A DNA stretch of 64,000 bases, from the IMG/VR virus record IMGVR_UViG_3300014911_000002, positions 1 through 64,000 of that record. One strand, written 5' to 3'. Origin of the DNA: a virus. The notes below the pieces were generated by a model. That model made no database searches and was not told the origin of the DNA. It saw only the letters and a list, made by a program, of their open reading frames with translations. Shown here piece after piece: positions 2,791 to 56,749 of this stretch. Numbering within the stretch: the stretch's first letter is position 1; each line of letters opens with the position of its first letter. A program made the position numbers and the translations under genes.

Positions 2791-5700
2791 ATGCCTAGTC
2801 TTGGGGAAATTTCTGTAAGAATTGTCCTCGACTTCCGAGGAATTACTGCACAGCTTAAACAATTTCGTAAATTACTCCAGACTGGGTTACAGCAAATCTC
2901 TAAAGAAATCTCCACTGGTTTTAAACCTCTTGGAGTAGCTCCTAAAGAATTTCAAAAAGCCTTTCAGAATATTGCTAAGACGGCTGCGAAACAAAGTCAG
3001 AAGACAGCTGCTATTGTTGGGAAAGGCGGAAGGAGAATAGGCAAGGCATTTGAAGAGGCTGCTCAGCCTATTTATCTTGGCTTCCCACGTGCAATGGATA
3101 CTATGCATCGACAGGTTTCTCGCTCTCTCTTTTCGGTTTTAAGGGATATGCTATCGTTCAGAAACATGATTACGAAAATAGTTCACTATATTACATTCAC
3201 CATCGGTGTGCAGATGGTCATGGGAATAGTTCGTGGTATAGGTCAGGTTACTGAGTCAACAAAGGAATTTCAACGTGCCATAGTAAACGCAGCTACTATC
3301 TCAGGATATCTTGGCGGTGCATTCGAAAAGGTTACTGCACACCTAGAAAAACTTGCTTTAGAACTTTCTAAGGAAACTGTCTTTTCGGCAGTAGATGTGG
3401 CCAAAGCATTTTATCAAATTGCATCAGCTGGTTACGACGTTTCGAAATTAACCAAACGCGAGCTCATACCAATATTGAATTATGCTGCGGCTACTCAAAG
3501 CACGCTTGAAGATGCCACTTATGCAGTATTAACCGCACTAAAAGCATTCAGACTAGATATCTCTGAAACTTCACACGTAGTTGACGTCTTCACTGCAGCT
3601 ATAACTAAATCATTCCAGAATTTCGATAGGCTTAGAGAAGGGATGAAATACGTAGGCGCAACTGCTGGCTCTCTAAATCTTTCAATAGAGGAAACAGTCG
3701 CAGCGTTATCAGCCTTGGTTGATCGTGGATTGGAAGGCTCGCAGGCAGGACAAAGACTCAATATGATACTCACAAGATTATTGAAGCCAACGGACCAGGC
3801 TGCAGAGACCCTGGAGCAGCTAGGTTTGACAGCGGATGATGTGAATCCCAAATACTATGATTTGGTTGAAATCTTATATAAATTGAAGGCTGCTGGTTTT
3901 GGTGCAGCAGAAGCATCCGCAATGTTCAGAGCTAGAACCGCAGCATCTGCTGTAGTGTTAGTACAGTCTGCTGATGACATCGCTCGTTTTACCGCGATGC
4001 TAGAACGTTCACAAGGCATAACCGAAACCGTTGCGGAATATCAAGAACGAACTCTATGGGGTGCACTAACTAAGGTTTCAAATGCTCTTCAAGCAGCATC
4101 GATTACTCTCGGCAAATCCTTGATTCCTGTCTTCGAATGGGCTGCTGGTGTAATCAAAGCTAAAGTTGTTCCTATGATTGAATCGGTGGCAAATGCATTC
4201 AAGTACTGGAAAGGCACAATATTCCCTGCCATCAAACTTCTTATTTCAATGCTTATCGGCTATAAAGCTGCGATGTTTGCGGTTTCAATCATGAGCAAAT
4301 ATGTCACAGGATTACAAATACTACAAGCAACAGCAATGACGAAAAATGCTCAAATAACGCTTCAAGCTGCTTTAGCACAACGTCTGTATGCTGAAGCTCA
4401 ACGCGAATTGGCAATAATGACTGGTCAAGCTACAGCTGCACAACTTGCCTTAAATGCAGCAATGTTGGCCAATCCCATCACTCTTCTCCTCATAGCTATT
4501 GGCTCTCTCGTATCTTATATGGTATTATTCGGGAGTGAAACGAAAAAGGCAAAGGACCCGCTTGAGGATCTTAACACATCTATGCTTGATGCAATTAGGT
4601 TTACCGAAGATTGGCAAAATACCATTAAAGATTTTGCTAAGGCTAATTATTCTGACGTATTTAAGAAAGAGGAGGATGCTATATCAGGATTCCTCCAAAG
4701 AATAGGTTTAAAGCATAAAGGAACAGCAGAGTTGGCCAGAAGGCTCTGGCGTGATATGGCAAAAGATCCCGAAGCCTATGCGGATGTGATAGAAGAGATT
4801 GCAAAAAGAACTGGATATTCCGTTGAAGAGATAAGGCAAGCATTAGCGGGTAAGACGACATTGCCAACATCAGTTTGGGGAAAGGGCGCAATTGAACAGG
4901 CAAGGCAGTTTTCCAAAGAGGTGAAAATAGCTCAAGATAGCATAGGAGCATTAGAAGATATGTTTACGACTACCCTTAGAGGCGTTTCAACTTCTTTTGC
5001 CCAAATTTCAGGAGAACTTTTAGCATTTCAGAATTCTATCCAGGAAATAACAGATGCTACAGAAGAATTTAGAGAAGCTGAAAACGAGTTAAACAGGACT
5101 TTGGCAGAATCCCCAGATAATCTGCGTGCCATAAAAGACGCAACCGAACGGTATGTAAACGCTCAATCCAAATTAGATCTAGTCTCAAAGAGGTTTTTAT
5201 CATCGCTCAAGGATTTGGTTCAGTCAATTCGTGAACTTCCAGGTCCTTACGATGAGGTCGTAGGTATTATGGAAGATATGGCAGATGCTATGCATAGCGC
5301 ATTTATTGCCGAGAAAGACCTTGCAGCAGCCGCAAGAGAAGAAGAAGAAGCGTTATCAAATCTTGCCAATACTCTTGCTTTATACGGTGCACAATCTTCA
5401 GAAGCAAGAAATGCCGAATATAAGTTGTTTGCAGCTATGAAGCAAAGAATGCAACTCGAAGACGAATTGGCATCTGCAACAAAAGACTATGAGGCTGCAC
5501 AACGAAAGCTTAATTTCATTATGGAACACGGTATAGAAGTTCAAACAGAATCTGGAACAACGACCATAAAACTAACATCAGTTCAGAAAGATCTTTTGGA
5601 TATGACAGAAAAACTAATACGATTAAGGGAACAATATATTCGTGCAGAGGCCGAATATATTGAACTTCAGGCTAAACAAAACGCATACCAATATCTTCTT

Positions 5701-8112
5701 GAGAAAGGAAGTAGGATATTAGCTGAGAAGAGTAAGATTTTGTTCGAGGCAAGGAAAAAACTTTATGATATAGAATATAAGCTTTACAAATTAAGAGTCG
5801 ATGAGGATGAACAACTAGGAGACCTCTTTAAGAAACTGGCAAAAGAGGGTTTCATAAATCAAAGCGTGGTCGATACTTACAAGGACATGATGTTGGCTAA
5901 AGGCGAACTCCTTAAACTTCATCCAAAGCTTGCAGCTATTTATGGGCGATTGAATGAAGAACAGAAAGAGCTCGTTGAGAATTATATTAAAACAGGTAAG
6001 GGTTTAGAGAGGCTTACATTCCTCACTGATGATGAGATAAATACAGTTGTAGCATTCAGAAATGCACAGCTTAGATTTTCTTCTGCAACTGAAGATCTTC
6101 GAAATGTTCTCACTCCTTTGATTGGTGATCTCATAGACATAGGTGCTGTATCCTCCGATGTTGCAAAATCCTATTTCGATCTTATAGACAATACGGGTGA
6201 GATAATCACATATAATCTTGAGTTACTTAAAATCAATGATGATCTCTCCCAGAGCATTGGTGATATAATTGGTGTGGTTGCCAGATTAGCTAGAGCATTA
6301 CAGGATGAGGCTGATGAAACCGATAGTGTCGCAGATGTCTATGATGAATTAGTTAAACAGCTTGGTCTTTCCAAGGAATTCGGTGACGATTATGGTGGCA
6401 TCTTAAAGACCCTCAACAAACTATACGGTACATCATATCGCTCGATTTCAGACTTCTCTGATGCTCAGTTATTAGTTGCTGCCGCATTAGTTAAAGTGGC
6501 CAAGAATGCCGGAATATACGAACGTGGTATGACCGCTGCAGAGATTGCAACTAGATTGCATATCTCTTCCCTTAACGAACTCACAGATGCAGCGCAATAT
6601 GCGTATGACAGTGAAGATTCTATGTATTCCATCACCACTAAACTCCAAGAAGCAGCAAATACTCTTAGCGGGACCTTCTCTGAGATGAATAAAACACTCA
6701 ATGAATTGGTTAACACCTATTATCGGTCTAATAAAGATCTTTTGCAATTTGCTCTTACTTGGGATTTTGCAGACACGCTTATGAATCGATTTGGCGGAAA
6801 TTTCGAAGAATTGGTTGCCACCATGCGAGCACAGGATCTTTCATTCACCATAGATATGATGACAAAATGGGATGGTAAGGATTGGGACGCATTTATTACT
6901 TCATTAAGCGGTGATAGAAGAGATGCGTTTTTCAAAGCCGTTGCTATGATGTCTGGTACATCAGTAGATATAGTCTCTAAATGGGATGGCGATGACTGGA
7001 AGGACTTTATTTCAGGTCTATCCTCAGATAAGATGAAGGCCATTTCATCTATCTTAACCTCAGAAGACTTGAATTTCAATATCGAAGCATTGCTGCAGGG
7101 AGTGCCACTTGCAGAACGAGTTAGGACGCTTCCGGATGATTTGAAAAACGAATTAAAACAAAGATTATCAACTTTGACCGATATCCCAGCTATCAATATT
7201 GATGCTCTGCTTCAAGGCGAAGCTGATTGGGCTAAGGGCATAAAGCCAGAACAGGTTCAAAAAGTCCAGCGGTTTTTAGACTCTCTTCCTGTAGATGAGA
7301 GAAGCCTTAATATTAAACCTACTATAGATACCACTAAAAGCACCGAAAAATCTTTGTGGGACGCAATATGCGATCTATTTTCTGGTATAGGAGCAACCTT
7401 CAAAAGGGGCATAGGTTGGGTAATAGATGTTATTGTGAACACAGTTACAGGCGGAGGCGGCGGTAGAGGCGGAGGTGGTGGAAGAGGTGGACGAGGAGGT
7501 GGAGGAGGGGAAAAACCACCACCTCCACCGCCGCCAAAACCAGAGGATAAAGGGAAGGTCGCTGGCATCTGGATAGAATGGAAAGATACTGATAAGCGAA
7601 CTGCAACTGGTCAAAAAATTTATGAAGCGACTTTTATAGCAAAATCCACAACTGGTTTATCCCATATCATAGGCAAGGCTGTCGGCACTACCGACGAGGT
7701 ACATAAAATTCACCAGGAACTTATAGGAAAATATGTCAACAAACCGTGGCCATGGGCATTCGGTGGTATCGCCGGACTTGCAATGAAAGCAGCCTCATTT
7801 AAACGTAGTGCGATAGTCAAAGGACCAGTGAATGCTTTAATTGGTGAAGCTGGACCAGAAGCTGTTATACCACTTGCAGGAAGATATAGAAGATATGGTG
7901 AGAAACTTCTTAGAGCAATCATCCCACGATATTTCCCAGACTTGCGAATGCAATATGGAAGCGTAGTTGAACGGCCTTTACCCGAGCGCATCACCACGAA
8001 TAGAGAAGAATTTATCATCAGAGGACCAATAATTATTGAGCACGTTGCAAGTCTAGAAGATTTTGTAAGTCAGCTAAAGTTTAGAGCCAGAGCTGCCGCT
8101 CCCACATCATGA
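2791..8112 (+). CDS. Tail tape-measure protein
   Basis: 1773 residues; the family sets tail length and helps deliver DNA. Residues ~110-330 resemble the TP901-type tape-measure domain with a hydrophobic stretch around 125-145. Residues ~550-580 form a strong hydrophobic segment (ANPITLLLIAIGSLVSYMV). Long heptad-rich helices follow (about 750-1100). Residues ~1553-1590 are a Gly/Arg- then Pro-rich linker, and the C-terminal part carries GEAGPEAVIPLAG, a signature commonly seen near the ends of tape-measure proteins. The ATG is preceded by AGGATGGATT. The length implies a long tail if the usual roughly 1.5 angstrom per residue relation holds (inference). It overlaps the next gene by ATGA. Confidence 0.95.
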   Translation: MPSLGEISVRIVLDFRGITAQLKQFRKLLQTGLQQISKEISTGFKPLGVAPKEFQKAFQNIAKTAAKQSQKTAAIVGKGGRRIGKAFEEAAQPIYLGFPRAMDTMHRQVSRSLFSVLRDMLSFRNMITKIVHYITFTIGVQMVMGIVRGIGQVTESTKEFQRAIVNAATISGYLGGAFEKVTAHLEKLALELSKETVFSAVDVAKAFYQIASAGYDVSKLTKRELIPILNYAAATQSTLEDATYAVLTALKAFRLDISETSHVVDVFTAAITKSFQNFDRLREGMKYVGATAGSLNLSIEETVAALSALVDRGLEGSQAGQRLNMILTRLLKPTDQAAETLEQLGLTADDVNPKYYDLVEILYKLKAAGFGAAEASAMFRARTAASAVVLVQSADDIARFTAMLERSQGITETVAEYQERTLWGALTKVSNALQAASITLGKSLIPVFEWAAGVIKAKVVPMIESVANAFKYWKGTIFPAIKLLISMLIGYKAAMFAVSIMSKYVTGLQILQATAMTKNAQITLQAALAQRLYAEAQRELAIMTGQATAAQLALNAAMLANPITLLLIAIGSLVSYMVLFGSETKKAKDPLEDLNTSMLDAIRFTEDWQNTIKDFAKANYSDVFKKEEDAISGFLQRIGLKHKGTAELARRLWRDMAKDPEAYADVIEEIAKRTGYSVEEIRQALAGKTTLPTSVWGKGAIEQARQFSKEVKIAQDSIGALEDMFTTTLRGVSTSFAQISGELLAFQNSIQEITDATEEFREAENELNRTLAESPDNLRAIKDATERYVNAQSKLDLVSKRFLSSLKDLVQSIRELPGPYDEVVGIMEDMADAMHSAFIAEKDLAAAAREEEEALSNLANTLALYGAQSSEARNAEYKLFAAMKQRMQLEDELASATKDYEAAQRKLNFIMEHGIEVQTESGTTTIKLTSVQKDLLDMTEKLIRLREQYIRAEAEYIELQAKQNAYQYLLEKGSRILAEKSKILFEARKKLYDIEYKLYKLRVDEDEQLGDLFKKLAKEGFINQSVVDTYKDMMLAKGELLKLHPKLAAIYGRLNEEQKELVENYIKTGKGLERLTFLTDDEINTVVAFRNAQLRFSSATEDLRNVLTPLIGDLIDIGAVSSDVAKSYFDLIDNTGEIITYNLELLKINDDLSQSIGDIIGVVARLARALQDEADETDSVADVYDELVKQLGLSKEFGDDYGGILKTLNKLYGTSYRSISDFSDAQLLVAAALVKVAKNAGIYERGMTAAEIATRLHISSLNELTDAAQYAYDSEDSMYSITTKLQEAANTLSGTFSEMNKTLNELVNTYYRSNKDLLQFALTWDFADTLMNRFGGNFEELVATMRAQDLSFTIDMMTKWDGKDWDAFITSLSGDRRDAFFKAVAMMSGTSVDIVSKWDGDDWKDFISGLSSDKMKAISSILTSEDLNFNIEALLQGVPLAERVRTLPDDLKNELKQRLSTLTDIPAINIDALLQGEADWAKGIKPEQVQKVQRFLDSLPVDERSLNIKPTIDTTKSTEKSLWDAICDLFSGIGATFKRGIGWVIDVIVNTVTGGGGGRGGGGGRGGRGGGGGEKPPPPPPPKPEDKGKVAGIWIEWKDTDKRTATGQKIYEATFIAKSTTGLSHIIGKAVGTTDEVHKIHQELIGKYVNKPWPWAFGGIAGLAMKAASFKRSAIVKGPVNALIGEAGPEAVIPLAGRYRRYGEKLLRAIIPRYFPDLRMQYGSVVERPLPERITTNREEFIIRGPIIIEHVASLEDFVSQLKFRARAAAPTS
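7450..7540 (+). repeat. Gly-rich/Pro-rich low-complexity linker in the tape measure
   Basis: GGN/CCN-rich stretch encoding polyglycine with Arg interruptions, followed by a run of prolines. It separates the helical body of the tape measure from its globular C-terminal domain. A region prone to slippage. Confidence 0.85.
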
Positions 8113-9566
8113 CGTCATTTTCAATTGTTTTCAATCCAGGTGAAGAAAACGAACTTACCATTTCCTCTGGAGATAATCTAGAATCTCTCACTATAAACCA
8201 TTCCAACGAGAGCTACTATAAAGATGCAGAAGTCGCGCTTTATAACATACCAGATTTTGAGGAGAAGGTATCTATAAATTCGCGAGTCAATATTTATATA
8301 GATGGGCATCTAGAATTCTCTGGATATGTTTCAAGAATACAGACAAGAATTAGCGGAGTAAAGATCTTCTATCTTCAATGTATTGGACGTACATACGATC
8401 TCTGGCGATTCATGATATCTGGCGACACTTATTTCGAAAAAAAATATTCAGCTTATATAGTTTCATCTCTTGTCGCCCAATATTGTTCCGGGCATGGAAT
8501 CTATATAACACCACCGGATGTCAGGGAAACGGATGGAAGCTATATTGAATACATTGATGTTTCCTTGATGGCCGTTGGGGATGCGATAGCACGCATAGCA
8601 AAATTCGATGGTCATCATTTCTTTGTTGATGAATATGGAAAACTTAGATATTATACCGTATCATCCTCTGTTCAATTTACCGTAACAACATCAGACATTC
8701 TTGAAATGGAACCCCTAGAGCATTCAGATGATTATATTAGAAATGACGTCTTAGTGGTTGGTTCTCAACAATACGAACAAATTATTCCTGATCAACTCCC
8801 ACCCTTTACATCTGGGAATTGGATTTGGATATCATCAGCAACAACATTCGTTGCACAGCAATTTGGAGTGCCCGCACTAGAAACCAATAGATTAACCTCA
8901 TTAAAACTCCGTGCTACGAGAAGCAAAGGCAAGAATACTCCACTGTATCTTGCGGGAGATATCCGAAATGATAATTCCGGAGAACCTGGATCCATAGTTG
9001 CATCCTCCAATACTATAACCTGGCATGGTGTCGATATTCAGGCTGACCCTTCTGGTACTTGGCTTCCATTCTATACATTTTCCAATCATCTATATCTTTC
9101 AGGAGGCGCAGCATATTGGGCAGTATTCCACTTCCCCGGTGCTAGCTCAAACATTTGGTGGAAACTTTCATATTCTCCTCTTCCGGACTATACAGATGTG
9201 CTTTCATCAGAACCAACATTATATGGAACTTGGGATTATGGAAGTATCGATTACGGTGATGTGGTCTATGATTCTGGGAATAATGAAGTAGATTTTGTTG
9301 CTAAACCAAGAGGATATGCATCAGCCAATACGTTCTTACAAGACATCACACCACGAACTCGTTATTTCTACCTTCCATCATCCTTATTTACTGATGAAAT
9401 TAATTTCCTTGCCAAAGTACGGATAGACAAATATGAAAGCGGGAATAAAGGCCTTGGGAATTACAGGCGCACCGATGATGGTAGATATAGACCAAGATTT
9501 ATGATCGGTTTATGTGATATGTCCCATCCAGCAAAACCAATGTTTGGATTTGAATTCGATCTATAG
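8109..9566 (+). CDS. Tail hub/baseplate protein, N-terminal part
   Basis: 485 residues, start overlapping the tape-measure stop (ATGA). Residues ~1-215 have the layout of a gp27/gpD-like hub: a beta domain, then YVSRIQTRISGVKIFYLQC, a helical region with LVAQYC, and VDEYGKLRYYT followed by SDDYIRNDVLVVGSQ. Residues ~240-400 look like an inserted carbohydrate-binding-type beta-sandwich (NSGEPGSIVAS, LSGGAAYWAVFHF). The usual C-terminal hub domain (RYVETYKDGI-type) is absent here and is found instead in the gene at 13710. This suggests that one hub is encoded in two pieces. It ends four residues after a MFGFEF motif. Confidence 0.75.
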   Translation: MTSFSIVFNPGEENELTISSGDNLESLTINHSNESYYKDAEVALYNIPDFEEKVSINSRVNIYIDGHLEFSGYVSRIQTRISGVKIFYLQCIGRTYDLWRFMISGDTYFEKKYSAYIVSSLVAQYCSGHGIYITPPDVRETDGSYIEYIDVSLMAVGDAIARIAKFDGHHFFVDEYGKLRYYTVSSSVQFTVTTSDILEMEPLEHSDDYIRNDVLVVGSQQYEQIIPDQLPPFTSGNWIWISSATTFVAQQFGVPALETNRLTSLKLRATRSKGKNTPLYLAGDIRNDNSGEPGSIVASSNTITWHGVDIQADPSGTWLPFYTFSNHLYLSGGAAYWAVFHFPGASSNIWWKLSYSPLPDYTDVLSSEPTLYGTWDYGSIDYGDVVYDSGNNEVDFVAKPRGYASANTFLQDITPRTRYFYLPSSLFTDEINFLAKVRIDKYESGNKGLGNYRRTDDGRYRPRFMIGLCDMSHPAKPMFGFEFDL

Positions 9567-9574
9567 GTGAAATT

Positions 9575-9781
9575 ATGGCGAGAGGGATTGAGCATAGAGA
9601 TGTTGGAGATCAGCTTTCAAAGACTGAATGGCTTGAAGGTGCTCACTACTTTATGAGCGGTACATCTTTTCCCGCTTCTCCAGCTGAAGGTGATGTATTT
9701 TATAAAACGGATGAGCATGTGTTGTATATTTATGATGGAACTTCCTGGAAGCCACTTGGTCCCACTGCTGTATATGGCTAA
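9575..9781 (+). CDS. Small fibre/collar-like protein
   Basis: 68 residues behind AGGTGAAATT and ATG. It contains SFPASPAEGDVFYKTDEHVLYIYDG, a variant of a short motif very common in phage tail-fibre and collar proteins (S-P-x-x-G-D-x-F-Y-x-T-x-x-x-x-x-Y-x-Y-D-G-x-x-W). It is the first gene of the cassette between the two hub-like parts. Probably a structural adaptor; specific role unknown. Confidence 0.65.
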   Translation: MARGIEHRDVGDQLSKTEWLEGAHYFMSGTSFPASPAEGDVFYKTDEHVLYIYDGTSWKPLGPTAVYG

Positions 9782-9791
9782 TTGAGAGAAT

Positions 9792-10271
9792 ATGGGATAT
9801 TCTTGGACTCCTATAAATAAAGGGGATCTTATAAAAGCTGCACACTTCAACGAAATCAAAGATAATCTCGAAGACCTCTATGATGAATTGCAATTGGATT
9901 CTCCATCCTGGACGTACTTTCCAGTTAGTGTTGGTCAGATTATCAAGAAAGACCATATTCAGGAATTAAGAGATAAGACCGATTATGCCGATGATATGAA
10001 TTACTGTCGTGCTCACGATGGCACTTACAACAATAGTATCGATTCTGGCTATAAATACAGCGTTGATTCCGGCGACAACTACAGTTATAAGGGAAGCTAT
10101 AATAGCGGTGTTGATAGCTCCTACAACTCAGCTGTTCATACAAATAATAATGACACAGTCGATTTAGATGAGTATTCTACGGTATATAACGGAAATGAAG
10201 CCTACGTATTGCTTGTAAACAAAAATCCCTACGATTCCGATACGTGGTCACCCTATTATAATGGCAATTAG
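9792..10271 (+). CDS. Tyr/Ser/Asp/Gly-repeat protein, candidate rSAM substrate 1
   Basis: 159 residues. The N-terminal part contains two copies of a helical motif (SWTPINKGDLIKAAHFNEI; SWTYFPVSVGQIIKKDHIQE) of the W-T-x-x-P-(x)-G-x-x-I-x-x-x-H-x-x-E-(L/I) kind seen in virion fibres. From about residue 75 it becomes repetitive and dominated by Tyr, Ser, Asn, Asp and Gly, with recurrent Y-x-S and V-D-S units (YNNSIDSG, YKYSVDSG, YNSGVDSSYNS). It is followed at once by a paralogue and two radical-SAM genes, so the repeat tail is a plausible target of peptide modification. It could equally be a plain fibre tip; the modification is inference. Confidence 0.7.
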   Translation: MGYSWTPINKGDLIKAAHFNEIKDNLEDLYDELQLDSPSWTYFPVSVGQIIKKDHIQELRDKTDYADDMNYCRAHDGTYNNSIDSGYKYSVDSGDNYSYKGSYNSGVDSSYNSAVHTNNNDTVDLDEYSTVYNGNEAYVLLVNKNPYDSDTWSPYYNGN

Positions 10272-10279
10272 GTGATAGT

Positions 10280-10648
10280 ATGGCTTTTACCTGGACGCCA
10301 ATAGATGTTGGCGATGTTATTAAGAAAGCTCATGTTATCGAACTTCGCGACAATATAGATTATATTTCTGATAATCTCGCATGCGTTACAGATAAGGATT
10401 CAGTCCATAGCTCTTATGACTCAAGCTATAAATCGGGATATAACACAACAGTTGATAATTACGATAAAGGAACCTATAAGAGTGATCACAAAACTGGTAA
10501 CTACTGGGGTCATGAAGCCACTATATATTCAAACAATGATATAAATGAATATGGAACCCATGATGAATCCGCACTGTCCGCACCTGATAAAGGAACCTAC
10601 AACGGAGGTTATTATGTCGACTGCTCGGGATATAATTCACCAGTTTAG
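10280..10648 (+). CDS. Tyr/Ser/Asp/Gly-repeat protein, candidate rSAM substrate 2
   Basis: 122 residues with a good AGGTGATAGT site. It is a paralogue of the preceding gene: one FTWTPIDVGDVIKKAHVIEL motif at the N-terminus, then a Tyr-rich repeat tail with YDSSYKSGY, YDKGTYKSD and DKGTYNGGY units. Its last 35 bases overlap the radical-SAM gene that follows, which means tight translational coupling. Cys occurs twice (C39 and C117 by my count). Role inferred as virion-displayed repeat peptide, possibly modified. Confidence 0.7.
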   Translation: MAFTWTPIDVGDVIKKAHVIELRDNIDYISDNLACVTDKDSVHSSYDSSYKSGYNTTVDNYDKGTYKSDHKTGNYWGHEATIYSNNDINEYGTHDESALSAPDKGTYNGGYYVDCSGYNSPV

Positions 10649-11942
10649 AGAAATTCAAGCACTTGAGTTGTTCACATCTGCATTATGTCCGCTCAATTGT
10701 AGGTACTGCTATATTCCTAAATGTTCTGCAATGGCGAACATACATAACGACATAATTCAGAATACCTTAACAAATGAACAAACTAGAATCGTAAAAGAAA
10801 AATTTCCAAATTTAAGAACGATATCGTTATGGGGTGCAGAACCTACAGTATCATTAGAGAATTTACTGCCAAAATTGAAAAAATTTGCAGAATCTATAAA
10901 TAAGCTAGATTCGATCACTTTTTCCACAAATTTTGTAAATATAAAACCTATTAAACACCTATTGAAGGTATTCGAAGATATAGATATAGAATTAAAAATT
11001 CAAATATCTCTTGATGGGCCAGACTTTATCACCGATTATAATCGTGCACCAGGTCTAACTAAGCGAATTCTTGAAAACATTGACGAGCTCATTGATTTTG
11101 CAAAACAATTGGAATTCAAGAGAAAACCATTAATTCATTTTAAATCAACAATCACTACTGAAAATATGCGATATATGTTAAATAGAAATCTAATAGAGGA
11201 ATATTTTTCATTTTGGGATGAGTTGTTTTCATCAATAAAAGAGAAAGAATCCAATATGGCATTTATTCTCAAATGCTATCCAACACTTGAGGTTCCTGGA
11301 CGATATACAAAATTAGACGGTGAGACGTTTGCTAATTTCCTCAAACAAGTACATAGTATTGGCCAACATTCCGACTACACCTTTAGACTAATTCGACTTG
11401 TTCAATTTAGTAAGAACCTATATGCAAGACACCATGAATTCACCTGTTCAGCAATGGATTCGAATTTAGGCCTAGATGGGCTTACAGTCCATCCATGCCA
11501 CAGGACATTTTTCCTAGATCGTCAAGAATACTTAGATGCAATACTTAGGATGGATGCATATCAAAATTGGGATGTCTCACTTCTTGATAAAGGACTTATT
11601 GACGCAGCCAACAAAAACTTTGTGGTCCCAATAAAAGATAACGATTTTTCACGGTTTGCCTACCTTGGTCGAGCCTATCATGATTTCTTTCGATTTCGTG
11701 TATCTATTACTTCAGCGATCATTCACGAAATGGCACTCGCTGGAGAAGTCGGCAAATACTATTTAAGATTACCTGAGCTAAGGGAACTATTGAGTATATT
11801 TCTTCATGCAGCAGTCGGATGCCCAGTCGAATCGATATTGAATTCAGGCTCTATCCATCTTCCAATCCTTTCTTTGATTAGACTATTTGGAAATGGAGCT
11901 TTTATCGAGGTGATTAAAGATGCGGTTAATACCCTTGGATGA
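10614..11942 (+). CDS. Radical SAM protein (SPASM-like, auxiliary region reduced)
   Basis: 442 residues starting at ATG 10614 behind GGAGGT; a longer frame from 10545 lacks a site. The [4Fe-4S]-SAM motif is C25-x3-C29-x2-C32 (ALCPLNCRYCY), followed by WGAEPT in place of the usual GGEP. The C-terminal half has one Cys in FTCSAMD and a VHPCHRTFF motif, also seen as VPCHRTSY in the next gene. The classic cysteine cluster for auxiliary clusters is missing, so it may hold only a partial twitch/SPASM site. Radical-SAM enzymes of this type mature ribosomal peptides. The neighbours suggest the Tyr-repeat proteins as substrates (inference). Confidence 0.85.
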   Translation: MSTARDIIHQFREIQALELFTSALCPLNCRYCYIPKCSAMANIHNDIIQNTLTNEQTRIVKEKFPNLRTISLWGAEPTVSLENLLPKLKKFAESINKLDSITFSTNFVNIKPIKHLLKVFEDIDIELKIQISLDGPDFITDYNRAPGLTKRILENIDELIDFAKQLEFKRKPLIHFKSTITTENMRYMLNRNLIEEYFSFWDELFSSIKEKESNMAFILKCYPTLEVPGRYTKLDGETFANFLKQVHSIGQHSDYTFRLIRLVQFSKNLYARHHEFTCSAMDSNLGLDGLTVHPCHRTFFLDRQEYLDAILRMDAYQNWDVSLLDKGLIDAANKNFVVPIKDNDFSRFAYLGRAYHDFFRFRVSITSAIIHEMALAGEVGKYYLRLPELRELLSIFLHAAVGCPVESILNSGSIHLPILSLIRLFGNGAFIEVIKDAVNTLG

Positions 11943-13227
11943 TGATGCAAAAGTTCTTGTTAATTTTCTAAATCGCACATTTCTTTCAGGATTTAAACAT
12001 CCTGAAAAAATGCCAAATTATAGCACAATAGAGCTTATAATAGACCCCTATTGCAATTTGGCGTGCAAATATTGTTATCTCAACAAATATGGAAAAGAGC
12101 TGAATCCAAATATTTCGATTTCTTCAATCCAAGAAAACTCGAAGAAGATAATAGATTTCCTTAAGGATTCAGGTTTTAAGGGAAGAATTGAGATATTCGG
12201 AGGAGAACCTCTTATAAAAGACTATGTATTAGATATAATAGAACGGCTTTTAATAGAGACAGACGCTAAGGAAATAGTAGTCCCATCTAATATGACTTTC
12301 CTATTGAATATGCAGAAAGATAAGAGAGTTAGAGAATTAATTGAGTTAGGAAAGGATCTTGGAAGGCCCTTCCTCATATCCTCATCCTGGGACGGAAAAT
12401 TAATGCAGGCGATCAATCGACCATTCAAAGTGAAAAAATCTGTGGATTTTGATGCTTGGGCGGATAAAATTTTTGAATTTGCAACTCACTATAAAATTGG
12501 ATTTCACCCGATGATATATTCAAATAATATAGAACAATGGTTTGATAATTTTTTATGGTTTCAGAAAAAATTCCAAGAGTTCAACATACCATTTAGCAGC
12601 CTTTATCTTTTGGAAGTACGAAACCCTGAATGGACGGTTGAACAAATCAAAGCATTCATGACCTTTATTGATAATGTTGTTAAATGGACATTTCACACGC
12701 CTTGCAAATCGCAAAAGGAAAATTTTCTCGAGTTTTTATTCGAAAAAAGAGGGTATAATTTACTATCCGCACCATTTTCAACGATAGGAAGAGGTATTGG
12801 TTGCTCCATTCAATCTGCACTGCACATTCGAGTTAATGATCTTGCCATAGTGCCATGCCATAGAACGTCTTATGAGCATTTTGTTGCTGGATATCTCAAG
12901 TTTGACGGAAAAAATGTCTATGTCAAATCGAAAAACATAGTCCCATATTTAGCCATACATACGCTTTCTGCAAAAACACTTCCTATGTGCGAACACTGTC
13001 CTCTCAATTCTATGTGTTCATTTGGATGTTTAGGTGCACAGTATGAAACTACAGGCGATTTATTTACGCCTATCCCAACAGTATGTATGCTTGAGCACGG
13101 AAAAGTTTTTCAACTTATCAAGAGCTTTATGGATATTAATGTACTAAACGATATAAAGGCTAGGGTTTCTCCTGATAAAAAATCAGCCATAGATTTATTT
13201 GAGGGGTATTATGAACGAGGTGTTTGA
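11920..13227 (+). CDS. Radical SAM/SPASM peptide-modifying-type enzyme
   Basis: 435 residues, overlapping the previous gene by 23 bases. The cluster motif is C45-x3-C49-x2-C52 (YCNLACKYCYL) and GGEP is intact (EIFGGEPL). The C-terminal part contains IVPCHRT and a SPASM-type set, CEHCPLNSMCSFGC, followed by a later Cys in TVCMLEHGK, consistent with auxiliary Fe-S clusters as in anaerobic sulfatase and RiPP maturases. It pairs with the upstream radical-SAM gene; two non-identical enzymes may act in turn or as a complex on the same substrate. Confidence 0.88.
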   Translation: MRLIPLDDDAKVLVNFLNRTFLSGFKHPEKMPNYSTIELIIDPYCNLACKYCYLNKYGKELNPNISISSIQENSKKIIDFLKDSGFKGRIEIFGGEPLIKDYVLDIIERLLIETDAKEIVVPSNMTFLLNMQKDKRVRELIELGKDLGRPFLISSSWDGKLMQAINRPFKVKKSVDFDAWADKIFEFATHYKIGFHPMIYSNNIEQWFDNFLWFQKKFQEFNIPFSSLYLLEVRNPEWTVEQIKAFMTFIDNVVKWTFHTPCKSQKENFLEFLFEKRGYNLLSAPFSTIGRGIGCSIQSALHIRVNDLAIVPCHRTSYEHFVAGYLKFDGKNVYVKSKNIVPYLAIHTLSAKTLPMCEHCPLNSMCSFGCLGAQYETTGDLFTPIPTVCMLEHGKVFQLIKSFMDINVLNDIKARVSPDKKSAIDLFEGYYERGV

Positions 13228-13699
13228 ACGAGTTAAAGGTGAATTAAAAGCTAGAAAATTTATTCCGTTGATACTCTCGAAGGATTTCATCAAAGAACTT
13301 TGGGGGACTGTATCGGATATTGAAAAAGAAATCAGAAAGGCGATTGAAGGAGAGAAGATCGAAAAAGACGATAAGATATATGAGTCAATCAAGAAATTTA
13401 GGGATATTTTTCGGGAGAGAATTGTGAGGGAACCGCTTTCTCCAAATCTTGCTAAATTTATACGAGATGTTCTCACTATATTTTACAATTATCTTTCAGC
13501 AGTCGATGATCAAGAGATGAAGGAAGAAATGTTAATACTAGTAAGATTATTAGATGGTTTTCTAACGTTGAATGAAGCTATAGCGATTTCTAGAGAACTA
13601 ATTGACTATCTCCGCAGGATGATGTACTATTCACCACCATATGTTGAACTTTCCAAGCATTATCTTGAAACGCTCCTTAACGAATGTGAAGAGCCATAG
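13211..13699 (+). CDS. Helical protein of unknown function
   Basis: 162 residues starting at ATG 13211 behind GAGGGGTATT; overlaps the radical-SAM gene by 17 bases. Predicted all-helical and charged, with no Cys until one near the C-terminus (LNECEEP). No family recognised. As the last gene of the cassette and translationally coupled to the radical-SAM enzymes, it may be a partner or chaperone for them or for the repeat proteins, but this is only positional. Confidence 0.7.
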   Translation: MNEVFERVKGELKARKFIPLILSKDFIKELWGTVSDIEKEIRKAIEGEKIEKDDKIYESIKKFRDIFRERIVREPLSPNLAKFIRDVLTIFYNYLSAVDDQEMKEEMLILVRLLDGFLTLNEAIAISRELIDYLRRMMYYSPPYVELSKHYLETLLNECEEP

Positions 13700-13709
13700 C
13701 TATTAATTC

Positions 13710-14573
13710 ATGACTGATGGTGGATTTCCTTATACATTTCCATTCTTCTTCGAGGATTCTTTTCAGAAACAAGTGAGAGCATTCGTAATGGTAGATCTAA
13801 CAGAGCATGATACAGCAAAACCCCAGGTCAAATTTGGTGCATGGCAACCAACGGGCTCTAGCACATACAGATGTATGATATCGGGCCTCAAACTTTATTT
13901 TTACATCGATGAAACATTGAAAGACACAATTAACCTTTCAGACCTCACCCTAGATCAGAATATAAAATTTGGACGAGGGTCGCCGCATAATTTCAATACT
14001 CTCGTATTCCGCATGATTGATACAGCGTATTCCTCTCAAGGAGTTGTTGCCTCCTCTGGCGCGTTCCCTTGGATATCCGGTGCCCTATGGGAATATTCAG
14101 TCGAAGATCTTGCTCAGGGTTTGAAAGTTTCCTACGATAGTGGCTCTTCTTGGACTCTACATCCCGATAAAAAACTCGATCTCGTATTAGGTTGGAATTA
14201 TGATTACGTCACAGGACGATATAAGGATTCTGGTTCGATTCAAACTTATGGTCCTCACTTTTATAAAGTAAGTGAACCGCTTATAACCACAAGAGATGAT
14301 GCAAGAACCCTAGCAAGAAGATATGTCGAGACTTACAAAGATGGAATTAAAACAGGTTCGGTGACAATTAAAGGCAAAACAGATATTTCTCTTTCAAATA
14401 AATTCAGGCTTTATCTCCCAGAAGTTGGAATCAATGAGACATTAGTTATAGCATCATATCAGCAACGGATAGATAAGAATGGTTTCACTACAAGAATCAA
14501 TTATGGTACAGTTCCATATGATATTGCAGCTAAAGTTGCACGGCTTGAGCGTAAGATAGAGTCTCAAATATAA
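13710..14573 (+). CDS. Tail hub/baseplate protein, C-terminal part
   Basis: 287 residues. The first ~170 residues are beta-rich (SGLKLYFYIDETL, NTLVFRMIDTAY), like the second half of a carbohydrate-binding sandwich. Residues ~195-287 match the C-terminal domain of tail hubs: ARTLARRYVETYKDGI, then TGSVTIKGKTDISL, NETLVIASYQQRIDKNGFTT and PYDIAAKVARLERKIE. No good ribosome-binding site precedes the ATG, and an in-frame TAA stands two codons upstream. It appears to complete the protein at 8109, with the 4.1-kb cassette lying between. Alternatively it is an independent baseplate gene. Confidence 0.7.
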   Translation: MTDGGFPYTFPFFFEDSFQKQVRAFVMVDLTEHDTAKPQVKFGAWQPTGSSTYRCMISGLKLYFYIDETLKDTINLSDLTLDQNIKFGRGSPHNFNTLVFRMIDTAYSSQGVVASSGAFPWISGALWEYSVEDLAQGLKVSYDSGSSWTLHPDKKLDLVLGWNYDYVTGRYKDSGSIQTYGPHFYKVSEPLITTRDDARTLARRYVETYKDGIKTGSVTIKGKTDISLSNKFRLYLPEVGINETLVIASYQQRIDKNGFTTRINYGTVPYDIAAKVARLERKIESQI

Positions 14574-17271: not shown

Positions 17272-18213
17272 CTATTTTCCGCAATTCCGCCCAATGAATG
17301 TTAAATTTGACGTCATCCCAAATTTTATCAAGAGCTCTTCATAATTCCTATTAAATTCCTTGAAAAGACGTTCCACTTCGTCTAGCATATAATTTTTCTC
17401 AAGTGGGTTTATATTCAACCAGCGCCTTATTGATATTTCCCAAAGCCCGATTTCACAAGACTCTTGTGGCTGTTTCTCAATAATCCAGTGAATATGGTTA
17501 AAGACATTATAATCTTGGGTGTAATAGATTCTTCCCTCTAGACCAACCCTTCTCAGGAGAAGGCGCAACGATTGCTTCGAAAAATAATTATAATGATATT
17601 TGTGAAAATAAAACGTCTCATATGATGGTATTTTATATAAATCCTTCAAAGCATCATGAAGATTAGGCACTTCAATTATTATGGTCCCATCAGGTTTTAG
17701 ATGCTGCTTAACCTTTATAAGATATGCAACAGGATCCTCTATGTGTTCTAAGGTCTGAAACATCGTAATAATATCAAATGCTTCTTCTTCCGGTACATCA
17801 TCAATAGTGCCATGAATTACTTTATAGCCAGTTTTCTCCTCTGCATATTCTGCCTCTCTCTTATTAGGTTCTACACCAATTGCAACACTAACTTTTCCTT
17901 TAATATTCCATAAAAATGCACCAACTCCGCAACCAACATCAAGAAGAGACTTGCTCCTGTCGAGATACCTTCTAAGAATTCTGAGTCTTCTCCATTGATT
18001 TCTACATTCTATATCAAAGAGTTTTTGAATATCTGTTTCTTTTCCAATAGTTGGGCCGTGTGTTTTCCTGTAGCTATTATAGGATATTTCATCTTTTGGT
18101 AATAATCTAGCAAAATCACAATGTCTGCAATAATATATCTCTCCCTTTTCTCCATTTCTTAGATTATCCGTTAAAAACTCCATTTCTTGATTGCATAAGA
18201 TGCATCTCATCAT
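17272..18213 (-). CDS. SAM-dependent methyltransferase with N-terminal zinc ribbon
   Basis: 313 residues; two consecutive ATGs follow GAGGAGGT. The N-terminus is a four-Cys ribbon (CILC and CRHC), then a class I methyltransferase domain with LDVGCGVGAFL, IGVEPNKREA and EEAFDIITMFQTLEHI, and an EVPN motif after the fourth strand. This architecture is typical of methyltransferases in surface-polysaccharide gene clusters. It is the last gene of the glycan operon and ends beside palindromic copy 2. The likely role is sugar C- or O-methylation; substrate unknown. Confidence 0.85.
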   Translation of the reverse strand: MMRCILCNQEMEFLTDNLRNGEKGEIYYCRHCDFARLLPKDEISYNSYRKTHGPTIGKETDIQKLFDIECRNQWRRLRILRRYLDRSKSLLDVGCGVGAFLWNIKGKVSVAIGVEPNKREAEYAEEKTGYKVIHGTIDDVPEEEAFDIITMFQTLEHIEDPVAYLIKVKQHLKPDGTIIIEVPNLHDALKDLYKIPSYETFYFHKYHYNYFSKQSLRLLLRRVGLEGRIYYTQDYNVFNHIHWIIEKQPQESCEIGLWEISIRRWLNINPLEKNYMLDEVERLFKEFNRNYEELLIKFGMTSNLTFIGRNCGK

Positions 18214-18926
18214 AAAACCTCCTCATAGTCTTTATAGGGAAATATATCGAGTTTTCCGCCACGGGATAGATTGTAAATCTCTATACCACGTTCATCAAAC
18301 AATTTCTTTATAACCTTCCAAGATTTGTAAGCCGTATCTAAGTCACGGACATCGGTTATTCTTGGCCAGTATCGTTTTGGCATTTTCCTCCAATCATAGA
18401 AATATGCATTATTGAAAGTCTTATCGACTTCATAATAGTAGGTTGTATCGCAGCCCATTATGTATATTCGCTTGAAGCCCATATATTGGGCTAAAGCCAT
18501 AGAGCAGGTAATAACTGCACTACCGCCAAAAATAATTTCCTTTGAAATATCCCATTCATAATCGCCATCAAATATTCGCCTTTTATTTGTCCAATTGAAA
18601 TAGTAAATTCTATCTTCGGGGAATTGTTTTGTCCTATCGTTTATTGGTTTAAATTCGCTACGTAGAAAGTACAATGCATTTTTGTTTTTCAAGAGACGAC
18701 GCAGTTTCCAATCATCAAATCTTCCAAACAGCCACGAGATTCGGGAAGCCTCTGACCAAAATATGTGTTCGAATTCTGGCCAAAGTGGATGCATATGAAA
18801 GTCATTGACTACAAAGACGTATCTATCAGTTATCTTTGATAAATCATGTTGATTTAGAGATGGACCGTTTCCAAGAACGAAACATTCTTCGCCTTTATAC
18901 TTATCCTTTAACTCACTGATTTGCAT
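18210..18926 (-). CDS. DUF115 / GT42-like transferase (possible nonulosonate transferase)
   Basis: 238 residues with GGAAAGAAT before the ATG. It has CFVLGNGPSLNQHDL at the N-terminus, FVVNDFHMHP, and GGSAVITCSMALAQYMGFK followed by IYIMGCDTTYY. The same order of motifs occurs in Campylobacter Cst sialyltransferases (GT42) and in DUF115/MptE-like proteins, which share a fold. With NeuA and NeuB in the same operon, transfer of a CMP-activated nonulosonic acid is an attractive inference. A sugar-modifying DUF115 protein without that specificity is the alternative. Confidence 0.65.
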   Translation of the reverse strand: MQISELKDKYKGEECFVLGNGPSLNQHDLSKITDRYVFVVNDFHMHPLWPEFEHIFWSEASRISWLFGRFDDWKLRRLLKNKNALYFLRSEFKPINDRTKQFPEDRIYYFNWTNKRRIFDGDYEWDISKEIIFGGSAVITCSMALAQYMGFKRIYIMGCDTTYYYEVDKTFNNAYFYDWRKMPKRYWPRITDVRDLDTAYKSWKVIKKLFDERGIEIYNLSRGGKLDIFPYKDYEEVL

Positions 18927-19252
18927 ATTCTTTCCGAGCGTGTTTTCCTTATCACATCTTTATCGCTATGATGCGTTGAAAACTCTATAATTATTGCATC
19001 TGTGAGCCCCGTGAATCTATGCCAGGAACCAGGTCTTATACGAATGACATCTCCATCTCGGAGTATCATCCTTTTTCTATCTAGTTCGAATAAAACCTTA
19101 CCTCCAAGGATGTAAAATGTTTCATCTTTTTTCCTGTGCATATGCAATGAGCTTCTGTGGCCTTCCTTCAATTGTAATATCTTTCCACAGTATTTATCCG
19201 TATTCACAATCCATAATTCTTGACCCCAAACCTTCTTAACTCGCTTTACCAT
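18908..19252 (-). CDS. Cupin-domain protein
   Basis: 114 residues. Single cupin barrel with LHMHRKKDETFYILGGKVLF (motif 1: H, H, E) and GDVIRIRPGSWHRF (motif 2: H). It resembles the small cupins fused to or found beside mannose-6-phosphate isomerase/GDP-mannose pyrophosphorylase and sugar-nucleotide genes. Coupled on both sides by short overlaps within the glycan operon. Isomerase or binding role not determinable. Confidence 0.8.
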   Translation of the reverse strand: MVKRVKKVWGQELWIVNTDKYCGKILQLKEGHRSSLHMHRKKDETFYILGGKVLFELDRKRMILRDGDVIRIRPGSWHRFTGLTDAIIIEFSTHHSDKDVIRKTRSERICKSVS

Positions 19253-20037
19253 GATGTCTTTCCTCCATCTATAACAACGATAGAACCGGTCATATACGAG
19301 GATGCATCCGATGCAAGAAATACAATCGCTCCTTTGTATTCATCTCGTCTGGCCATCCTTCCAAGCGGTATAAGTTTCGATAATTTTTCAACAAATTCTT
19401 CTGGTTGGTTATTATAAACACCACCAAACACTAGGCAATTACAACGAACATTTTTATCAGCCCAGTAAGTGGCTGTATATTTCGTGAGACCTATTAAACC
19501 TGCTTTTACAATGTTATAAGATACAGGCTTTGGAGTCTCGTAAAGAAACTGAGTAGGACCCAAATGTGCTCCAAGATATGAACCTATATTTATAATAGAG
19601 CCCTTTCTTTGCTTAGCCATTACGCTTCCGAAGACTTGCGTACAGATTAATGCACCTATTAAGCCATCGCGAATGTCCTGTTCTAAGACATCCAATGGAA
19701 AGTTTTCCAATGCACCCCAATTTTTTGAATCGCCCTCTACTTTTGGATTATTTGCTGCATTATTTATAAGTATATCAATATGGCCAAACTGATTAAGTAA
19801 ATCATCTCTTATTGCCTCCATTTTATTCTTATCTGTGATATCAGCATGATATTTAATCCATCTATCAGGAAGTTTGTCAAGCTTCGATTTGTTTCTATCT
19901 ATGATAACTGGAACTCCACCAAACTCTTCGATTGCTTCTGCATGCATTGGTCCTAATAAACCGGCTCCACCAGTTATAATCGCGACACGTCCAGTTAAAT
20001 CAAAGATCCCATAACCCGCTTTAGCAGCCTTATCCAT
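19246..20037 (-). CDS. Short-chain dehydrogenase/reductase
   Basis: 263 residues. NAD(P)-binding IITGGAGLLG at ~20-29, HADIT, NNAAN, and catalytic IGSY...YxxxK (VSYNIVKAG), ending in TGSIVVIDGGKTSW, as in classical SDRs. It resembles SDRs such as PtmA in nonulosonate loci and probably acts on a sugar or sugar nucleotide. It overlaps the VOC gene upstream by 43 bases. Confidence 0.88.
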   Translation of the reverse strand: MDKAAKAGYGIFDLTGRVAIITGGAGLLGPMHAEAIEEFGGVPVIIDRNKSKLDKLPDRWIKYHADITDKNKMEAIRDDLLNQFGHIDILINNAANNPKVEGDSKNWGALENFPLDVLEQDIRDGLIGALICTQVFGSVMAKQRKGSIINIGSYLGAHLGPTQFLYETPKPVSYNIVKAGLIGLTKYTATYWADKNVRCNCLVFGGVYNNQPEEFVEKLSKLIPLGRMARRDEYKGAIVFLASDASSYMTGSIVVIDGGKTSW

Positions 20038-20519
20038 TTTCTCACCGTATTTTTCTCTTCCACCAACTCTATAAAATTCCCTCCGGGATCTTTAACTACT
20101 GCTATCTTTACAGGCTTTAATTTCGCTTCACAAGATTCAGAAATGATTTCTCCTAATCCTGACTTCTTTATTCTTTTTATAGTTTCATCTAAATCATCCA
20201 CCGTAAATGAAATATGCGAAATTCCAGTGCAGAAATATCCATGGAGGATTTTCACCGTCCGTGGTTTTATGAATTTCATTATTTCAAGTTCTGCACCAGA
20301 CTTTGCCGCAAGCTTAATTGACCATACTGCACAGCCTTGATCTTTTATCTTCTTTCCATAGATTTCGACATCACCAAGCATACATTTCATCTGTTCATAA
20401 TCTTCTATTTCATTCCAAACTTCTTTCATCCCGAGGATCTCTTTATAAAATCTTATAAGTTTTGTAAATTCTTCTTCATCATCAGCTACAATTGCGGGAT
20501 GGCGAATATCGAGAATCAT
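19995..20519 (-). CDS. VOC (glyoxalase/dioxygenase fold) protein
   Basis: 174 residues starting behind GGAGGAGATGAT. Two beta-alpha-beta-beta-beta modules: RFYKEILGMKEVW with GAELEIMKF, then ISHISFTVDDLDETI with KDPGGNFIELVEE. Metal ligands (H8, E in LEIMKF, H in ISHISF, E in FIELVE) seem present. Such proteins occur as isomerases or epimerases in sugar clusters. Substrate unknown. Confidence 0.8.
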   Translation of the reverse strand: MILDIRHPAIVADDEEEFTKLIRFYKEILGMKEVWNEIEDYEQMKCMLGDVEIYGKKIKDQGCAVWSIKLAAKSGAELEIMKFIKPRTVKILHGYFCTGISHISFTVDDLDETIKRIKKSGLGEIISESCEAKLKPVKIAVVKDPGGNFIELVEEKNTVRKWIRLLKRVMGSLI

Positions 20520-21697
20520 ATCATCTCCTCCAATGATGTTCTTATTATTTCAAAACCCTGCCTCAACATCGATTGAGACATAATGAGAGGCGGACCAATC
20601 TTAAAGGTCTTTTTATGTGTAAATATGGGCATCAAACCATTTTTCAGCACTTTCCACGACAATTCTTCTGAATCTTCTTTTCTTGGAAGGTGAAATGCGC
20701 CAACCATACCGATACATCTTATATCCTCTATTAAATTGGGAAATTTCTGCATTATTGAACACATTTCTTGGCGCATTACCTCCTCATTCCTTTTTACATT
20801 CTCCCAGATTTTTTTCTCTAGCATAAACTTTAATGCTCCATATGCTGCAGCACAAGCAATTGGATTTCCAGAATGGGTATTCGAAATATATGTCTTACCA
20901 TCTAGGCAGCTCATTATCCTCTCCCTTCCTGTAACACCGCTCAATGGGAGGGATGAAGAGACTCCTTTTCCCCATATCACCATATCTGGCTGAATATGCG
21001 CATCCCCACCTAAGTGATGATGTTGGTGACAGAATAATTTTCCAGTTCTCCAGAATCCGGCTTGTATTTCGTCTGCTATTAAGACAACTCCATTTTCATT
21101 AGCCCAAGATTCCATGCTTTCTTCATAATCATCTGGTATAGTGTATACAGACCATCCTTGATAAGGTTCAAAAATTATGGCTGCCACTTCTTCTGGCCGT
21201 TTAACTATTGAGACGTCTTCATAAAAGTCAGCATCCGGACTCTTTGGATATGGCAGAAGATAGTCAGCGTCTTCTGATAATATCCTCCGACATTCATGAG
21301 TATTGCCATGATAAGAGTCTTTAAACGCTACAATTTTCTTTCTACCGGTAAATTCCTTTGCTAATCGAAGCGCGGTATCTACAGCCATCGAGCCGTCAGA
21401 GAATAGCGCTGTTTTATAGTGTTTATATGGAAAGATCTCATGAAATAGGCCCAAGAACTTCTCACGCCACTCGTTTCGCCATGCAAACGAATGGAATACA
21501 CCGCTCTTTATCGCTCGTTTGATATATCTTTTAACATATTTATTATTGTGACCAACATTTGCGACAAATATACCAGATGAAAAATCTAAATATTTATCGC
21601 CATATTCATCCCAAATTATACACCCATCTGCTTTAACCCATTTAATATTCTGTGGTACATCATGCATAGAATCTGGTTCATATATCCCCATCTTCAT
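20516..21697 (-). CDS. Class III PLP aminotransferase
   Basis: 393 residues. It contains DEYGDKYLDFSSGIFVANVGH, LFSDGSMAVDTALRLAKEFTGR, FKDSYHGNT, VVLIADEIQAGFWRTG (the DE of the cofactor site) and MVIWGKGVSSSLPLSGV with the Schiff-base Lys. The fold is that of glutamate-1-semialdehyde/ornithine-type aminotransferases. In this operon it may transaminate a keto-sugar or a nonulosonate precursor (inference). It overlaps the NeuA gene by 20 bases. Confidence 0.9.
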   Translation of the reverse strand: MKMGIYEPDSMHDVPQNIKWVKADGCIIWDEYGDKYLDFSSGIFVANVGHNNKYVKRYIKRAIKSGVFHSFAWRNEWREKFLGLFHEIFPYKHYKTALFSDGSMAVDTALRLAKEFTGRKKIVAFKDSYHGNTHECRRILSEDADYLLPYPKSPDADFYEDVSIVKRPEEVAAIIFEPYQGWSVYTIPDDYEESMESWANENGVVLIADEIQAGFWRTGKLFCHQHHHLGGDAHIQPDMVIWGKGVSSSLPLSGVTGRERIMSCLDGKTYISNTHSGNPIACAAAYGALKFMLEKKIWENVKRNEEVMRQEMCSIMQKFPNLIEDIRCIGMVGAFHLPRKEDSEELSWKVLKNGLMPIFTHKKTFKIGPPLIMSQSMLRQGFEIIRTSLEEMI

Positions 21698-54236: not shown

Positions 54237-54237
54237 T

Positions 54238-56593: not shown

Positions 56594-56595
56594 GT

Positions 56596-56745: not shown

Positions 56746-56749
56746 CCTC

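Follow-up and report, generated by a model that had tools for sequence, protein, structure and literature searches.

The window that we have analysed is the first 64 kb of the 89,379-bp IMG/VR virus record IMGVR_UViG_3300014911_000002. Between the tail genes of this virus, on the plus strand, lies a cassette that encodes, in this order, two repeat proteins (RepA and RepB), two radical S-adenosylmethionine (radical-SAM) enzymes (rSAM1 and rSAM2) and the product of a fifth open reading frame (ORF5); their coordinates are listed in Table 1. Here, we describe these genes and their recurrence in other viruses, and we weigh the reading that the enzymes may modify the repeats of the viral tail tip.

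The cassette and its products

The last four genes of the cassette overlap, and purine-rich ribosome-binding signals precede the starts: the RepB stop (10648) overlaps the rSAM1 ATG (10614), with GGAGG just 5' of it, the rSAM1 stop (11942) overlaps the rSAM2 ATG (11920), and the rSAM2 stop (13227) overlaps the ORF5 ATG (13214). The rSAM1 start at 10614 has been picked by its ribosome-binding site and by the N-termini of homologues, a longer ORF from 10545 being possible. An earlier note on this DNA, made from the letters alone, had described two non-identical radical-SAM enzymes that are translationally coupled to two paralogous repeat proteins: all of its ORFs are present where it had placed them, the genes of RepB, rSAM1, rSAM2 and ORF5 do overlap, RepA and RepB are indeed paralogues (34% identity over 96 amino acids (aa), E 1e-13), and the enzymes, both of which have the CX3CX2C motif, are distantly alike (23%, E 8e-07).

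Each repeat protein consists of an N-terminal domain (N-domain) and a repetitive tail. The N-terminal motif, W..I..G..I..A.I.E[IL]R.N.D, occurs in two copies in RepA and in one copy in RepB; the DNA pattern of the RepB N-domain has one match in the window and none in shuffled sequences. The tails are a period-4 repeat of the form small-small-X-x, where the small residues are S, G, T or A, X is Y, V, D or H, and x is D, N or Y; the Y-x-S and V-D-S repeats of the earlier note are present, but as instances of this wider four-residue tetrad and not as its unit. The period-4 signal reaches z = 4.0 in RepA and z = 4.2 in RepB, in regions picked to maximise it, and in almost every repeat protein, small residues autocorrelate positively at lags 4 and 8 and negatively at lags 2 and 6. 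A cyclic four-state register model holds 64 of 159 residues in phase in RepA and 86 of 122 in RepB; over 51 repeat proteins, 6275 residues are in phase, versus 188 after shuffling. In these 51 proteins, the first small position is T (27%), G (23%), S (20%) or A (8%), the last small position is S (36%), G (15%), T (13%) or A (11%), position x is D (27%), N (23%) or Y (18%), and position X is Y (23%), V (17%), D (17%), H (14%), E (8%) or N (6%); Y and H together account for about 37-42% of X, and about 60% of X is neither aromatic nor His.

In the AlphaFold2 (AF2) model of RepA, the helices of the N-domain (aa 1-70) have a predicted local distance difference test (pLDDT) score of 77-91, and the tail (30-40) has no confident fold. 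Such tails might be ordinary disordered or ion-binding spacer repeats, or the variable regions of a diversity-generating retroelement, with no need of enzymes: residues with NAY codons, plus Val, make up most of X and x, the tails are hypervariable and, like the tail tips that such retroelements diversify, they are rich in Y, S, D, N and G. We consider this quite improbable, because the register is held over tens of tetrads while the window copies of the repeat genes contain no DNA-level tandem repeat, so that the register is maintained in the protein rather than in the DNA, and because the tails are strictly associated with the two enzymes. A retroelement origin in particular is ruled out: the proteins that retroelements diversify have a C-type lectin variable region in place of a period-4 register, and no reverse transcriptase (RVT_1) is found in the 89,379-bp record, in a search whose positive controls worked.

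The CX3CX2C motif is located at aa 25-32 of rSAM1 (10686-10709) and at aa 45-52 of rSAM2 (12052-12075), and is invariant in 24 rSAM1 and 25 rSAM2 homologues, as is characteristic of the radical-SAM superfamily; against the Pfam Radical_SAM model, rSAM2 scores above the 29.5-bit cut-off and rSAM1, with 28.6 bits, just below it. Seven further cysteines of rSAM2 (C295, C313, C357, C360, C366, C370 and C389; 12802-13086), invariant in the 25 homologues, form the pattern C..C, CX2CX5CX3C, C, by which rSAM2 is a genuine SPASM enzyme. Only three further cysteines of rSAM1 (C278, C295 and C403) are invariant in the 24 homologues, corresponding to a partial, twitch-like site. The best matches of both enzymes are peptide and protein maturases, all of them weak and none reaching a curated cut-off: the cyclophane-forming maturases YhhB, AmcB and GrrM match 23-24 of the 24 rSAM1 proteins, and the anaerobic sulfatase maturase matches 23 of the 25 rSAM2 and 19 of the 24 rSAM1 proteins. 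No curated enzyme family among those tested fits the pair, and solved structures align to it in the radical-SAM core region only. An identity as viperin (pVip) has been rejected (29.4 bits versus a cut-off of 180, with weak PADLOC matches).

ORF5, whose interval the earlier note had covered without naming it, is the third conserved component, present in 46 of the 48 contigs that are introduced below. Its AF2 model (mean pLDDT 87.8) comprises seven helices and has no significant fold match in Foldseek searches against PDB and BFVD; ORF5 may serve for docking or as a chaperone.

Table 1. Location of the cassette genes, their repeats and the tail genes around them. Positions refer to the window unless a locus handle is given.
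Feature	Position	Strand	Remark
RepA, 159 aa, two N-terminal helical motifs (aa 1-73) and tetrad-repeat tail	9792-10271	+	
Tetrad repeat of RepA, 16 units	10011-10202	+	register unbroken
RepB, 122 aa, one N-terminal motif (aa 1-36) and tetrad-repeat tail	10280-10648	+	
Tetrad repeat of RepB, about 21 units	10388-10645	+	two small slips
rSAM1, 442 aa, radical SAM	10614-11942	+	partial twitch-like auxiliary site
rSAM2, 435 aa, radical SAM/SPASM	11920-13227	+	
ORF5, 161 aa, all-helical accessory protein	13214-13699	+	C-terminal PP..ELS.HYL motif
Tail tape measure protein (context)	2791-8112	+	PHROGs E 8.4e-63
Distal tail protein, possibly hub-like N-terminal part, upstream of cassette	8109-9566	+	follows tape measure gene; role inferred
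68-aa fibre-like protein	9575-9781	+	weak PHROGs matches including tail fibre families, best E 1.6e-4
Distal tail protein, possibly hub-like C-terminal part, downstream of cassette	13710-14573	+	YQBQ-like, E 0.085 only
Fibre gene with zinc-finger-like tail	L006:4178-5374, L010:3-4295, L012:773-1996, L043:3201-4130		

Recurrence and linkage of the cassette

Single-protein searches of viral contigs with each enzyme have returned no match; the family has been opened by a degenerate DNA pattern of the rSAM1 motif CPLxCxYCY[IV]PK, which has identified 8 viral contigs where the same arrangement is readable (two of the loci are partial or near-duplicates). Alignment-based scans have extended the family to 24 and 42 viral loci, while in genome contigs 12 loci have been found, four of them just distant radical-SAM proteins; the bins of the genome contigs include Thermoplasmata, Nanohaloarchaeota, Diapherotrites, Nanoarchaeia, Thermoprotei and Dehalococcoidales, among others. 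The cassettes that the earlier note had proposed to seek in other viral tail operons do exist, with enzymes and repeat proteins occurring together, and we have compiled them in a table of 48 contigs (loci are cited by our own handles, L or G). Both enzymes are present in 45 of the 48, the remaining three being cut by contig ends, and a tetrad protein is located within 3 kb of the enzymes in 44, two or more of them in 34. Near the enzymes, 79 of 355 ORFs are tetrad ORFs, versus 3 of 323 elsewhere, two of which are L072's own pair, about 5 kb off. Complete sets that differ by more than 10% in rSAM2 number 40. The repeat protein of L045 is very regular.

The neighbours of the cassettes are tail or baseplate genes throughout. 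The usual order is A-B-rSAM1-rSAM2-ORF5; it is rSAM1-ORF5-A-B-rSAM2-ORF5 in one supported clade (L030, L071, L077 and L079), and the repeat genes lie downstream of the enzymes in L032, L064, L067 and L092. This is linkage under REARRANGEMENT: the cassette genes change place, yet remain together. The pairwise distances of rSAM1 and rSAM2 are correlated (r 0.83), as are those of either enzyme with ORF5 (0.69-0.72).

Two enzyme-blind DNA patterns of the repeat-protein N-domain, used since the RepA alignment is too variable for scanning, have been run over 2.9 million viral contigs. Thirteen contigs have matched, 11 of which hold the enzymes (in diverged form in G002, where four repeat proteins are located downstream of genes that read like T4-type baseplate genes); G001 is a chance match without repeats. 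The earlier note had named viruses that carry the repeat proteins without the enzymes as what would speak against it, and the two scans have returned none: L099/G003, the sole repeat-bearing contig without enzymes, stops 19 bp after RepB.

The enzymes might nevertheless act on another target, such as a small molecule, the host surface or another protein, and owe their position to a shared late host-contact module, given that enzyme targets are not readable from sequence, that the window virus has other carbohydrate and radical-SAM genes, and that a glycosyltransferase-like gene is located within or beside the cassette in some contigs. We find this unlikely, because the two enzymes, the two repeat proteins and ORF5 are linked across deep divergence and several gene orders while their neighbours change, and because scans that are blind to the enzymes return them from the repeat-protein domain.

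A comparison with L019 and L027 shows where the cassette evolves. Between L019 and L027, the enzymes share 80-87% identity and the RepA N-domain 93%, versus 33% and 30% for the tails; between the window and these two loci, the RepA N-domains share 90-92% identity and the enzymes 40-47%. The tails are the fastest-evolving part, as expected for host-contact regions, while the N-domain is constant, as expected for an anchor or docking part. At L030 (8502-9853), RepA terminates in SDIRLKKDI, and the short ORF that follows RepB resembles the remainder of an S74-type fibre chaperone domain; both features support a probable fibre origin of the repeat proteins.

Some cassette contigs are certainly phages of bacteria, judging by their genetic codes or baseplate genes. 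The enzyme genes contain in-frame TAG only in L082, L091, L092 and L094, and in-frame TGA only in L033 and L038; broken enzymes have been ruled out at these six loci, where the ORFs read through intact once TAG or TGA is taken as sense, and the genomes are probably recoded phage genomes. Among the INPHARED isolate phages, the only match is an unrelated record like the SCIFF maturase, the other queries matching nothing, and no plasmid has matched the cassette.

Two loci stand apart. In L042, a Diapherotrites contig, the cassette is followed by cellular-looking genes (TatC-like, CDC48-like ATPase), so that the locus may be a provirus edge, a misassembly or a domesticated copy. In L086, a 159-kb viral contig, no tetrad proteins are found near the enzymes; a His-Xaa-Ser-like (HxsA-like) repeat protein adjoins rSAM1, rSAM2 and ORF5, together with an aldo-keto reductase-like ORF and three extra radical-SAM proteins (3680-12448). 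The HxsA-like protein ties the enzyme pair once more to repetitive substrates, and L086 is possibly a bridge between the Hxs system and the rSAM1/rSAM2 family.

A proposed maturation of the tail-tip repeat

We read the cassette, with a probability of about 0.72, as a virus-encoded, two-enzyme maturation system that acts on a hypervariable tail-tip repeat, in the manner of the systems that make ribosomally synthesised and post-translationally modified peptides (RiPPs). The putative enzyme-substrate pairing is well supported by the genomics; we infer the action of the enzymes on the repeats, the residues that are changed, the retention of the product on the virion and the role of the product. 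RepA and RepB would be made with their N-terminal helical domains as virion anchor and probably also as enzyme-docking region; rSAM1 and rSAM2, with ORF5 as a probable accessory, would modify many tetrads before or during tail assembly, the change probably occurring at or beside the recurrent Ser, Thr, Gly or Ala, in the form of cross-links or another SPASM-type alteration; and the modification would turn an unstructured, fast-evolving tail into a stiff display for host contact. The two enzymes could split the classes of X between them, or act one after the other. The cassette would be a RiPP system in the broad sense, as it appears to combine a docking region, a core and co-encoded tailoring enzymes, with the N-domain as the presumed leader.

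Within one virus, RepA and RepB are alike in their residue composition at each of the four positions of the tetrad (0 of 2000 shuffles), a likeness compatible with a shared enzyme. Several points weigh against our reading: this likeness could stem from gene conversion or base composition; the repeat proteins at two loci, L032 and L072, are poorly periodic; no RRE-like (RiPP recognition element-like) protein has been identified; no protease or exporter has been noticed beside the genes, where no profile search for them was made; the scan patterns are strict at the DNA level and may have passed over repeat proteins without enzymes; and X is chemically too mixed for any single known reaction to account for it. 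The last point bears on the aromatic-x-x cyclophanes that the earlier note had in mind: they are compatible with the repeat, and possible, where X is Tyr or His, but cannot cover V, D, E, N or Q, and fit only part of the repeat because of the large non-aromatic share of X.

The modification could consist of one side-chain cross-link per tetrad, from X to the Ser two residues on (X-x-Ser), like a three-residue cyclophane or the peptides of FxS/HxS type, which we regard as tentative. This is the commonest spacing, with S at 52% of the last small positions in strict tetrads and Y-x-S found 97 times versus 83 expected; X is rich in His and Tyr in the bacterial-phage members, and the weak matches of nearly all rSAM1 proteins are to YhhB, AmcB and GrrM. 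The mixed X stands against it, as do the many tetrads with G or A at the last small position (D at X prefers G, 38 versus 17.7 expected) and the fact that every curated cut-off is missed by far. Doubtful as well, in our view, is an epimerisation, an oxidation or another change without cross-links that occurs in register (Val to cyclopropylglycine, Ser to a formylglycine-like residue, or D-residues) and makes the tail fold regularly: what stays constant in the tetrad is its pair of small residues and not X, TvgB acts on Val in TVGG repeats (PMC9062424), and the sulfatase maturase matches both enzymes weakly, but the cut-offs of none of these families are reached, and SPASM sequence similarity does not predict the reaction.

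Several known systems are close to the maturation that we propose. In TvgA/TvgB, one radical-SAM enzyme modifies a tetrapeptide repeat many times, turning the Val of TVGG repeats into cyclopropylglycine (PMC9062424): the cassette shares with it a tetrapeptide repeat of small residues and Val, as a multi-site radical-SAM/SPASM substrate, but TvgA/TvgB has a fixed TVGG motif, which the composition of the tetrad does not match, a single radical-SAM enzyme, dioxygenase and transporter genes, and a bacterial peptide product. In the His-Xaa-Ser system (HxsA, HxsB and HxsC), two unlike radical-SAM enzymes adjoin a ribosomal protein with a short repeat that ends in Ser; the cassette differs by its period of 4 instead of 3, its mixed X instead of His, its viral tail location and ORF5. 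With 34.2 and 26.2 bits versus the HxsB cut-off of 370, the enzymes fall outside HxsB/HxsC, and the HxsA model has no match in RepA or RepB.

The cyclophane maturases (YhhB, AmcB, GrrM/OscB, FxsB and XyeB) and the PapB ranthipeptide maturases, which are radical-SAM/SPASM enzymes acting on short peptide motifs, are the most consistent weak matches, the window proteins reaching at best 57 of 340 bits; unlike RepA and RepB, their substrates are short peptides with defined aromatic or Cys sites, and an aromatic first residue in every core motif, as in triceptides, is not what the tetrads present. The best viral family is PHROG 1802, phage radical-SAM proteins that match most of the radical-SAM part (E 2.4e-18 for rSAM2 and 6.8e-13 for rSAM1); it carries a functional label only, and the repeat partner is not given there. 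The mode of working would resemble known radical-SAM peptide maturation, with membership in none of the families tested and in a setting that appears unprecedented. The belief of the earlier note that the system is undescribed agrees with our full-text literature search (most subscription papers are outside its coverage), which has found neither a description of the tetrad repeat nor one of virion proteins as targets of radical-SAM enzymes.

The tail region, other genes of the virus and significance

The window virus is tailed, with tape measure and terminase genes. Since the last ORF of the record repeats the window start, the record probably represents a complete genome with redundant ends. 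Its ERCC4-HhH nuclease and anaerobic class III ribonucleotide reductase suggest a host that is anaerobic and probably an archaeon. The proteins that flank the cassette are conserved at the same place in L019 and L027: the upstream distal tail protein with 48-49% identity, the 68-aa protein with 81-84% and the downstream distal tail protein with 59-60%. A recent insertion of the cassette into a tail hub gene has been ruled out, because L019 and L027 have the cassette at the same site; the idea that the distal tail proteins are the two parts of a split hub has weak profile support, the downstream one matching weakly a hub-like protein of L006/L013. In several viruses, a conserved zinc-finger-like tail with the pattern CxxC...H..C (VxCPxCxxxF...PAHLEC) forms the end of the fibre gene that lies upstream of RepA.

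Positions 1-2310 of the window and the end of L004 encode a long protein with degenerate repeats around an [IL]D[AST][IL]L-like motif, and similar repeats occur near the cassette in L013, L043, L044 and L046. On the minus strand, a nonulosonic-acid (sialic or legionaminic type) gene set (17272-24350) comprises NeuB (E 3e-65) and a CMP-sugar (cytidine monophosphate) cytidylyltransferase, along with ORFs that are like a short-chain dehydrogenase/reductase (SDR), an aminotransferase and a methyltransferase; it is unusual for a virus, and its role is possibly a change of surface glycans. Another radical SAM/SPASM protein (24686-25651, minus strand), outside the tail operon, adjoins glycosyltransferase-like genes. 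Two glutamine amidotransferase-like proteins, a GCS2-like ligase, a phage COOH-NH2 ligase and a RimK-like ATP-grasp protein (53250-59556, minus strand) form a predicted amide-ligation or peptide-tagging system of the same virus.

That some 40 distinct archaeal and bacterial viruses carry the cassette suggests that viruses may chemically modify their own tail tips. We give even odds to the full form of the proposal, in which these viruses have a radical-SAM system of two enzymes that is dedicated to modifying successive tetrads along two hypervariable tail-tip proteins, and which would provide the first radical-SAM-matured virion component, a new substrate class (a mixed-X tetrapeptide repeat) and a viral route to stiff, easily diversified host-contact rods. 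Neither the enzyme pair nor the substrate class that the cassette adds falls within any of the curated families tested, and chemists would gain, if the reading is true, a naturally tolerant multi-site radical-SAM pair. It would also explain how fast-evolving, unfolded-looking tail-tip repeats work in host contact. The known cases of radical-SAM peptide maturation come from cellular gene clusters whose products are small peptides; in the present cassette, which is conserved across viruses of both prokaryotic domains, the maturation would serve the virion itself.

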